Below are positions 20,008 through 36,836 of a stretch of 64,000 bases of DNA, piece after piece. The notes under the pieces were generated by a model. It did no database searches. It was given only the letters and a program-made list of their open reading frames with translations, and was not told the origin of the DNA. The position numbers and the translations under genes are program-made. Position 1 is the stretch's first letter. Each line of letters opens with the position of its first letter. The stretch comes from Shinella zoogloeoides (GTDB taxonomy: Bacteria > Pseudomonadota > Alphaproteobacteria > Rhizobiales > Rhizobiaceae), in NCBI RefSeq assembly GCF_022682305.1, contig NZ_CP093528.1:571501-635500 (forward strand). Direction: 5' to 3'.

Positions 20008-20170
20008 GGCGTTTGTTAACGGGAGCTTACCGGACCCATGCGCCAATCGCATGGGTGGCGTGCTCGCTTGGCGCTGTACTGCATTGCAGCATAAGCCTAT
20101 AAGGAAGCCATCGAAAGACGCGGCGCCACGGACCGGTGCCGAACAGAGAGCCCTAGGAAAGGGGATCATC

Positions 20171-20317
20171 ATGAACATGGCACGTTCCTTCAACAATTGG
20201 CGCAAGTACCGTCAGACCGTCAACGAACTCGACCGCATGAGCGCGCGTGAACTGCGCGACCTCGGTATCGAGCGCTCGGAAATCAAGTCCGTCGCCCGCG
20301 CCGCCGTCGGCTTCTGA
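20171..20317 (+). CDS. Small arginine-rich DUF1127 protein, 48 aa
   Basis: The product is a short DUF1127 protein: Asn-Asn-Trp-Arg-Lys-Tyr-Arg at the N-terminus, then Glu-Leu-Asp-Arg-Met-Ser, and Glu-Leu-Arg-Asp-Leu-Gly-Ile-Glu-Arg-Ser-Glu-Ile. Start ATG 20171 follows a strong AGGAAAGGGGA. DUF1127 proteins in alphaproteobacteria bind RNA and affect sRNA maturation and turnover; in Rhodobacter one is encoded directly before the CCUCCUCCC-loop CcsR sRNAs. The same order is seen here, with a CCUCCUCCC RNA starting about 190 nt downstream on the same strand. A terminator lies between them. Confidence 0.92.
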   Translation: MNMARSFNNWRKYRQTVNELDRMSARELRDLGIERSEIKSVARAAVGF

Positions 20318-20347
20318 CCGACGCGCCGGAAACGGCAGAATTCGAAG

Positions 20348-20373
20348 ACGCCCGCCCTCCGGCGGGCGTTTTT
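20348..20373 (+). terminator. Rho-independent terminator of the DUF1127 gene
   Basis: ACGCCCGCC (20348-20356) and GGCGGGCGT (20361-20369) pair around CTCC, followed by a run of five T. This is a strong intrinsic terminator 30 bases after the stop. Confidence 0.95.
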
Positions 20374-20405
20374 GCATGTGCGAACGAATCGTCCGTATCT
20401 GCCTT

Positions 20406-20419
20406 AATTCAACGGAATT
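20406..20419. promoter_or_regulatory. Dyad upstream of the CCUCCUCCC RNA
   Basis: AATTC (20406-20410) and GAATT (20415-20419) flank AACG, about 85 bp before the first RNA hairpin. It may be an activator site, for example for a LysR-type protein, but no binding consensus can be proven here. Confidence 0.3.
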
Positions 20420-20502
20420 GAGATATACGCCACGCGCATAACGCATAGCTGCCTTGCAAAACGATGCCTATCGAATAATCAGGAATCGGATATAGTCATA
20501 TT

Positions 20503-20660
20503 TATCGAAGCAACGTACCTCCTCCCACGAAGCTTCGATGGATGCAGAAGGCCCACTCCTCCTCCCAGGGCCGACTGCTGGAATGGCGGCACTCCTCCTC
20601 CCAGTCGCCATTCGGTTCTATCGGAAAGCCTGCCGCACCTCCTCCCGCGGCAGGCTTTTC
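20503..20660 (+). ncRNA. Cuckoo/alpha-r14-like small RNA with four CCUCCUCCC hairpin loops
   Basis: Four hairpins follow one another, each with CCTCCTCCC in the loop. Hairpin 1: ATCGAAGC 20504-20511 with GCTTCGAT 20532-20539, motif 20518-20526. Hairpin 2: GCAG..GGCCC 20544-20554 with GGGCC..CTGC 20568-20578, motif 20558-20566. Hairpin 3: GAATGGCG 20581-20588 with CGCCATTC 20606-20613, motif 20594-20602. Hairpin 4: AAAGCCTGCCG 20625-20635 with CGGCAGGCTTT 20648-20658, motif 20638-20646, ending in a T tract so it is also the terminator. The motif is an anti-Shine-Dalgarno sequence as in the alpha-r14 (NfeR1) and cuckoo/CcsR sRNAs, which base-pair with ribosome binding sites. A TATAGT at 20491-20496 could be the -10 element. 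The 5' end is approximate. Confidence 0.88.
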
Positions 20661-20765
20661 CATTTCTGGACCTCTCTTCCCGCTCGACGATACCAAAACC
20701 GGCCGATCCGCTTAGGCAGTTTCATTGTGTTTTTGAAAATATAGCGCTGGCAAAGGCGTATGCGC

Positions 20766-20821: not shown

Positions 20822-21595
20822 ATGAACCGTCGCCTGCTTCTGAAACTCGTCGTCGCCGCGTTCGCGGCCCTGCCGCTCGCCCTGCCGGTCGCAGCCGCGG
20901 AGAAGGTCACCGTCTTTGCCGCCGCCAGCCTCAAGAACGCGCTCGATGCAGCGAATGCCGCCTGGCAGAAGGAAACCGGCAACGAGACGGCGGTCTCCTA
21001 TGCCGCAAGCTCGGCGCTCGCCAAGCAGATCGAGGCGGCCGCACCCGCCGATCTCTTCATCTCGGCCGACCTTGCCTGGATGGATTACGTCGCCGAGAAG
21101 AAGCTGATCAAGGACGACACCCGCTCGAACCTCCTCGGCAACCGCATCGTTCTCGTCGCGCCGAAGGACAAGGCTTCGACGGTCGAGATCAAGGAAGGCT
21201 TCGATCTCGCCGGTCTCGTCGGTGACGGCAAGCTCGCCATGGGCGCAGTGGATAGCGTGCCGGCCGGCAAATACGGCAAGGCCGCGCTCGAAAAGCTCGG
21301 CGTCTGGTCCTCCGTGGAAGGCAAGGTCGCCGGTGCGGAAAGCGTGCGCGCGGCGCTCGCTCTCGTTTCGCGCGGAGAAGCGCCCTACGGCATTGTCTAC
21401 CAGACGGACGCCGCCGCCGATCCGGGTGTCGCCGTCGTCGGAACCTTCCCGGAAGACAGCCACCCGCCGATCATCTATCCGGTCGCGATCCTGTCGGAAT
21501 CCAAGAGCGCAGTTTCTGCCGCCTATCTCGACTTCCTGAAGTCCGACAAGGCCGCGCCTTTCTTCACCGAACAGGGCTTCACCATCCTGAAGTAA
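20822..21595 (+). CDS. modA: Molybdate ABC transporter substrate-binding protein
   Basis: 257 aa periplasmic protein. The signal peptide ends near Pro-Val-Ala-Ala-Ala. The mature start Val-Thr-Val-Phe-Ala-Ala-Ala-Ser-Leu-Lys and the Ala-Ser-Ser-Ala-Leu-Ala-Lys-Gln motif supply the oxyanion-binding serines typical of ModA. It captures molybdate (or tungstate) and delivers it to ModBC. It is preceded by a ModE box. The usual tight spacing to modB is broken by a 252-bp gap holding a repeat element. Confidence 0.95.
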   Translation: MNRRLLLKLVVAAFAALPLALPVAAAEKVTVFAAASLKNALDAANAAWQKETGNETAVSYAASSALAKQIEAAAPADLFISADLAWMDYVAEKKLIKDDTRSNLLGNRIVLVAPKDKASTVEIKEGFDLAGLVGDGKLAMGAVDSVPAGKYGKAALEKLGVWSSVEGKVAGAESVRAALALVSRGEAPYGIVYQTDAAADPGVAVVGTFPEDSHPPIIYPVAILSESKSAVSAAYLDFLKSDKAAPFFTEQGFTILK

Positions 21596-36539: not shown

Positions 36540-36836
36540 ATGCGCATGATCGACCGTAAGATGGAAATCGATATTCTCGCGACGCGCCGGCCGACGCCGG
36601 GCCTCTTTGCCCGCGCCCGCAGCGCCGCTTCCAGATTTATCCGTGCATGGCAGAATCGCCGGCTGATCGAACGGCTGAGCGAGCTGGAGGATTACCAGCT
36701 CTTCGACATGGGGCTGTGCCGCAACGATGTGAAGGATGTGCGCGCCGCATCCTACTTCTCCGATGCGGGCCTGCATCTGACGATCGCGGCGCGCGAGCGC
36801 GCCCGTCGCCATCTGCGCAGCGGCCGAACGGATTGA
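36540..36836 (+). CDS. DUF1127 protein with N-terminal extension, 98 aa
   Basis: The DUF1127 core is at about residues 38-65 (Arg-Arg-Leu-Ile-Glu-Arg-Leu-Ser-Glu-Leu-Glu-Asp-Tyr-Gln-Leu-Phe-Asp-Met-Gly-Leu-Cys-Arg-Asn). The N-terminal arm is Arg/Pro-rich and the C-terminus has a further Arg-rich helix. Start at 36540 follows GGAAAGGAG. It is longer than the 48-aa copy at 20171. It is divergent from the LsrB-like LysR gene, so the two may be coregulated. Its 3' region forms three hairpins. Confidence 0.87.
   Translation: MRMIDRKMEIDILATRRPTPGLFARARSAASRFIRAWQNRRLIERLSELEDYQLFDMGLCRNDVKDVRAASYFSDAGLHLTIAARERARRHLRSGRTD

Follow-up and report, generated by a model that had tools for sequence, protein, structure and literature searches.

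The DNA examined here, from Shinella zoogloeoides, raises the question of whether a small DUF1127 gene and the row of hairpins downstream of it belong to one transcript or whether the hairpins form a small RNA (sRNA) in its own right. The window, by which we mean the whole stretch of 64,000 nucleotides that was analysed, belongs to a genome of 5.14 Mb assembled in 7 contigs. A first-pass annotation had described four stem-loops, each with an anti-Shine-Dalgarno (aSD) motif in its loop. This description holds: four exact copies of CCTCCTCCC lie where it had placed them and in the range it had given, there are no others on either strand of the 64-kb window, and each motif occupies its own hairpin loop in the predicted fold of 20500-20665 (Table 1). 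A count of four was reached by none of 100 dinucleotide shuffles of the window (mean 0.73, largest 3), which rules out a chance origin of the motifs, and the region folds at -75.1 kcal/mol compared with -46.7 kcal/mol (SD 3.44) in 200 shuffles (z = -8.26). The array starts with the stem of hairpin 1 at about 20504. Hairpin 4 is probably the terminator because of its stem and the CTTTTCCATTT that follows it; it is absent from the output of our terminator scan, in which the loop limit was 8. Beyond the array, at 20822, lies a gene for a solute-binding protein (Pfam SBP_bac_11), probably modA as judged from its neighbours.

Table 1. Features of the DUF1127 gene and the hairpin array, in window coordinates
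Feature	Position	Strand	Basis
Inverted repeat CCCATGCG-N5-CGCATGGG, conserved, 5' of the DUF1127 gene	20035..20055	+	Sequence; conserved columns
Best VtlR/LsrB-like match upstream of the DUF1127 gene, 11/15 letters	20080..20094	+	Motif scan
DUF1127 gene, small protein of 48 aa	20171..20317	+	PF06568, 60.7 bits (cut-off 23.3)
Terminator-like hairpin 3' of the DUF1127 gene	20353..20373	+	Scan; hairpin 20353-20368 plus five T
VtlR/LsrB-like box upstream of the array, 12/15 letters, read on the minus strand	20442..20456	+	Motif scan; conserved columns
Putative -10 hexamer TATAGT (probable start at about 20503)	20491..20496	+	Read in the sequence; largely conserved
Four-hairpin ar14/cuckoo sRNA (SmelA099 type)	20504..20660	+	ar14 match, fold, covariation
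Hairpin 1, motif 20518-20526	20504..20539	+	Folded pairs; essentially outside the Rfam ar14 match
Hairpin 2, motif 20558-20566	20544..20578	+	Folded pairs
Hairpin 3, motif 20594-20602	20581..20613	+	Folded pairs
Hairpin 4, motif 20638-20646, probable terminator	20623..20660	+	Folded pairs; stem nearly invariant

The first-pass annotation had assigned the RNA to the alpha-r14/cuckoo type and had called for a covariance search. The ar14 model (RF02344) matches 20538-20662 over its full length (model positions 1-123) with 103 bits, compared with a gathering cut-off of 58.8, which bears out the assignment; the Rhodobacter model CcsR1 (RF02791) reached 30.5 bits in a search at permissive thresholds, under its gathering cut-off of 65.3. 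With the ar7 model likewise under its cut-off in that search (26.6 bits), membership of CcsR1 or ar7 is ruled out. The ar14 match begins at the end of hairpin 1 and comprises hairpins 2-4, which correspond to the three hairpins with one aSD motif per loop that characterize ar14, and the model has no place for hairpin 1. NfeR1, the described ar14 RNA, has three hairpins, whereas the Shinella RNA has one more at its 5' end, and loop counts taken from the ar14 model alone would be too low because the match omits hairpin 1. Five ar14 loci over the cut-off are present in the genome. The second chromosomal one (G000:C1:1578007-1579233; L001, L005) consists of a tandem pair of arrays followed by two DUF1127 genes on the same strand, so that both chromosomal ar14 loci adjoin DUF1127 genes, in opposite order.

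The compact four-loop form that the first-pass annotation had put forward was already published as SmelA099 (smrA6; RFMSmelA099 of Reinkensmeier et al. 2011). Section 2.7 of PMC3927594 gives SmelA075 and SmelA099 three and four CCUCCUCCC hairpins, respectively; passages of the same paper give RS0680a two loops and cite a proposal of a single family in which the number of modules varies. In a table of PMC2873474, the transcript of SmelA099 has a length of 160 nt and is placed on the minus strand of pSymA, at 1328175-1328334; a table of PMC7143759 repeats this entry. On pSymA of S. meliloti strain 2011 we found the homologue of the Shinella array at 1326516-1326678, minus strand, with four motifs and 77.2% identity over 98% of the query. 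Its offset of about 1.66 kb from the SmelA099 listing fits the different length of the plasmid in strain 1021. Both RNAs thus have four consecutive CCUCCUCCC hairpins, a common first stem (ATCGAAGC...GCTTCGAT) and homology across all four hairpins; together with the ar14 match, this homology rules out a new RNA class. They differ in that the Shinella array is chromosomal, whereas SmelA099 lies on a megaplasmid, with no DUF1127 gene found by a script search within 2.5 kb on either side of the strain 2011 homologue, where the record is unannotated. Moreover, a single transcript of about 160 nt is reported for SmelA099, whereas the length of the Shinella RNA is deduced from stem 1, the putative -10 and hairpin 4.

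Relatives also occur on plasmids: 555 of 72,556 plasmid records match, mostly from Rhizobium (328) and Sinorhizobium (158), and in 440 records a single site spans 80% or more of the query. Coverage does not equal loop count, as the R. etli p42d copy has three exact motifs and a changed first one. When five plasmid homologues were opened, a DUF1127 gene was found beside one, that of R. johnstonii pRL11 (L246), and not beside the other four, S. meliloti SmelA099 included.

We asked whether the hairpins themselves are maintained by aligning 46 of 50 distinct four-motif arrays and projecting the structure of the window onto them. Across the 46 arrays, 93.8% of the cells were paired and 27 of 44 pairs had changes on both sides. 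None of 500 shuffles, which ignore relatedness, reached any of five pairing measures. Structures with slid partners, a control that keeps relatedness, were 34-51% paired, although taking the structure from one of the aligned sequences favours that structure. Hairpins 1, 2 and 3 covary around fixed loops, while hairpin 4 is almost invariant (9 of 14 pairs never vary), a pattern that agrees with the variable stems round an ultraconserved motif known for ar14. Hairpin 2, poorly aligned by MAFFT, was not retained by RNAalifold; counted on the projected structure, it is 85.0% paired. As judged from these alignments, the hairpin structure is under selection. Compensatory changes in the stems, on whose presence the first-pass annotation had staked its RNA, therefore occur in stems 1-3, and the last stem, which unlike stems 1-3 hardly changes from genus to genus, may be constrained by more than termination.

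The association with DUF1127 noticed in the first-pass annotation extends well beyond the window. An ar14 match is present in all 21 Shinella genomes, and each of them has one locus where a DUF1127 gene precedes an array of four exact motifs (a script identified 21 such loci in 20 genomes, and genome G002 was added from its translation; the loci were those of the ar14 search plus 20 more fetched places, a subset of the ar14 rows). From the DUF1127 stop codon to the first motif, these loci measure 197-213 nt, in line with the roughly 200 nt that separate stop codon and array in the window. Throughout the genus, the four-loop form is thus a stable architecture that includes a conserved block upstream, and no chance duplication. 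Two loci (L029 and L031) hold further four-motif arrays with different stems, and the script found no DUF1127 gene there.

In the family, 109 of 151 genomes carry one or more arrays of three exact motifs; with the pattern reversed, the count was zero for each genome listed. Among the best 80 named DUF1127 loci, an array of at least three motifs lies within 1 kb downstream in 33 and two motifs in 3, an array of at least two motifs lies upstream instead in 22, and neither side has one in 22, of which one (L096) is cut by a contig end. As a control, the outer kilobases of 30 loci contained no array, a weak comparison given that all 30 come from one genome. An alignment model of the four hairpins, applied with stricter filters, had matches in 30 of a sample of 199 genomes of the order (E <= 1e-6), and scores above 160 bits came only from three genomes of one family (G000, G049 and G147). 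The four-hairpin form with DUF1127 upstream is found in other Rhizobiaceae genera as well. Loop and module number appear to drift among copies: loop 2 of one Shinella copy (L053:1508-1681) is longer by a triplet, the array of Rhizobium sp. Root1334 (L121:2348-2530) has five motifs, and another locus (L094) has four 7-letter partial motifs downstream and no full motif.

Does the array have a promoter of its own? The conserved block that precedes it ends in TATAGT, 7 nt 5' of hairpin 1. Despite this plausible -10, we found no convincing -35 in the block, and a consensus sigma-70 scan called no promoter at the array and did not list TATAGT. An LsrB-activated promoter is a reported feature of NfeR1. 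The -35/-10 signature of NfeR1, CTTAGAC-N17-CTATAT, was not seen by eye upstream of the window's array. The block does contain a VtlR-like box, scored against the 15-letter VtlR motif as quoted in PMC12595884. Of the 34 named regions upstream of an array, 28 agree with it in at least 11 of 15 letters, 30 have their best match between -75 and -77 relative to the first motif, and 26 do both; at the genus loci, at least 11 letters are found at -76 or -77 in 22 of 22. All these counts come from related loci and are not independent of each other. As background, 11 letters were reached by 6.8% of 1020 dinucleotide shuffles, by 1.3% of 680 letter shuffles and by one control stretch in 34; the box is therefore less striking against dinucleotide than against letter shuffles, while the constancy of its position (30 of 34) is unaffected. 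An exact LsrB form, TGCA-N6-GCAT, occurs in just 7 of the 34 named upstream regions (compared with 1.0% of shuffles), and the window does not have it in exact form.

On the side of the gene, the terminator scan found one terminator where shuffles gave 1.0, so the argument for a DUF1127 terminator is its conservation, a crude scan having placed one between gene and array in 31 of 34 named loci. Because this terminator and the upstream block are conserved and a VtlR/LsrB-like box lies in front of the array, the sequences suggest that the array is transcribed apart from DUF1127; the proposal of the first-pass annotation that the RNA can be transcribed alone thereby gains in likelihood from terminator and block. 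Upstream of the DUF1127 gene, at least 11 VtlR letters occur in 23 of 34 regions (7.8% of dinucleotide shuffles), and in 25 of 34 the best match lies between -123 and -128 relative to the start. This is the site of the conserved inverted repeat, the right half of which is the place of the best VtlR-like match in many relatives, and because most matches fall on the repeat they may not be VtlR boxes. Within the genus, the leader of the gene (20095-20170) shows strong conservation; it contains a GGCGCC...GGTGCC inverted repeat and may have a regulatory role. A further, more distant DUF1127 domain is encoded in the window at 36627-36731, without a CCTCCTCCC array.

LsrB and VtlR are counterparts. 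NfeR1 is described in PMC10746234 as LsrB-activated, and Brucella DUF1127 genes are reported to be VtlR-activated (PMC12595884). We infer that DUF1127 gene and RNA lie side by side and are transcribed separately, possibly under a common regulator.

Taken together, the locus very probably encodes a chromosomal four-hairpin sRNA of the ar14/cuckoo type, homologous to SmelA099, that would be transcribed from its own promoter and block the start of translation, with DUF1127 as a separate unit. The odds of this reading are unaffected by the higher box background because it does not rest on the box. The RNA would be about 155-160 nt long and end at hairpin 4. Each loop displays CCUCCUCCC, which would pair with GGGAGGAGG-like Shine-Dalgarno sequences. 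Such pairing would block the translation start of many mRNAs, as reported for NfeR1 in S. meliloti, and the extra loop would most likely add dose and redundancy. The first-pass annotation had proposed that the RNA might engage several ribosome-binding sites at once; for NfeR1, the three motifs are described as redundant. The DUF1127 gene could be under a common regulator of the LsrB/VtlR type, as the boxes suggest, and protein and RNA would therefore be made under related conditions. A scan of the Shinella genome for GGAGGAGG-N3-11-ATG gave 68 matches compared with 8 for the reversed pattern. Of the 30 that were inspected, few look like true starts; five candidate targets have plausible starts and encode, according to Pfam, an acyl-CoA dehydrogenase and CoA-binding, LuxR-type response regulator, DUF2147 and SH3 proteins.

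The first-pass annotation had proposed the DUF1127 protein as maturation or turnover factor of the RNA. The corresponding rival reading is an operon like that of CcaF1 and CcsR, in which DUF1127 and array form one transcript that RNase E cuts with the aid of the DUF1127 protein, the protein then serving in maturation and turnover. The link to DUF1127 is already published: a short DUF1127 gene with a CcsR-like sRNA beside it, which is what the Shinella locus consists of, has been named the CIN1 locus (as cited in passages of PMC10253847). In Rhodobacter sphaeroides, for which the same passages report this mode of processing, CCUCCUCCC loops likewise lie downstream of a DUF1127 gene, and a single cotranscript with ccaF1 is cut into the four RNAs CcsR1-4 (PMC10253847). 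The identical gene order, the linkage in 21 of 21 genus genomes and the arrays of at least three motifs downstream in 33 of the best 80 named DUF1127 loci speak for such an operon. We nevertheless consider it quite unlikely, since the Shinella array appears as one four-loop RNA with an upstream block of its own, its CcsR1 score stays under the cut-off, the array lies upstream of DUF1127 instead in 22 of those 80 loci, and DUF1127 was not found beside four of the five plasmid homologues opened; in addition, with a terminator in 31 of 34 named loci, an obligate cotranscript becomes less likely. The proposed role of DUF1127 as a maturation factor of the Shinella RNA is accordingly somewhat weakened, given that gene and RNA look like separate units and that the gene was found beside one of the five plasmid homologues opened. 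It is weakened further by the report, in parts of PMC12501420, that small Agrobacterium DUF1127 proteins act through PhoR, although R. sphaeroides CcaF1 is there reported to bind RNA and can replace small DUF1127 proteins. Attenuation of an S. meliloti DUF1127 gene is the subject of PMC12218461, whose main text does not contain 'CcsR' or 'NfeR1'; in PMC11975290, DUF1127 appears in the reference list only.

Four full aSD motifs in one array and five ar14 loci over the cut-off in one genome could also point to a general Shine-Dalgarno sponge, whose hairpins mainly lower translation broadly and do not act as a target-selective sRNA. This is highly improbable in view of NfeR1, which has defined targets and whose silencing depends on its motifs: passages of PMC10746234 describe three redundant aSD motifs and silencing of ntrB through them. 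We give somewhat more room, still as a doubtful proposal, to a two-gene module controlled by LsrB/VtlR, in which the arginine-rich DUF1127 protein, made from a transcript of its own, serves the RNA as dedicated partner and both jointly reset translation. The partner would be a binder, protector or turnover factor, and the translation reset would be that of transporter and nitrogen genes.

Under the preferred reading of a separately transcribed sRNA, the RNA type and its pairing with DUF1127 are both known from related bacteria; what is added here is the genus-wide four-loop architecture, the covariation and the view of gene and RNA as co-regulated neighbours. The VtlR/LsrB-like boxes offer a testable reason, co-regulation, for the DUF1127-RNA neighbourhood in many genomes, which bears on whether DUF1127 proteins act on RNA, as CcaF1, or on proteins, as with PhoR.

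The terminator of the DUF1127 gene itself carries related loops in some Rhizobium loci (L077, L086, L098, L099 and L100), where its loop reads TTCCTCCC, CTTCTCCC or the full CCTCCTCCC. This group comprises records of R. freirei, R. lusitanum, R. miluonense, R. phaseoli and Rhizobium sp. ASV20, and the full motif is that of R. miluonense (L100:2192). In these loci, the DUF1127 mRNA ends in an additional aSD-like hairpin; if the two-gene module were real, such terminators, with full or partial motif, would be further members of the RNA pool.
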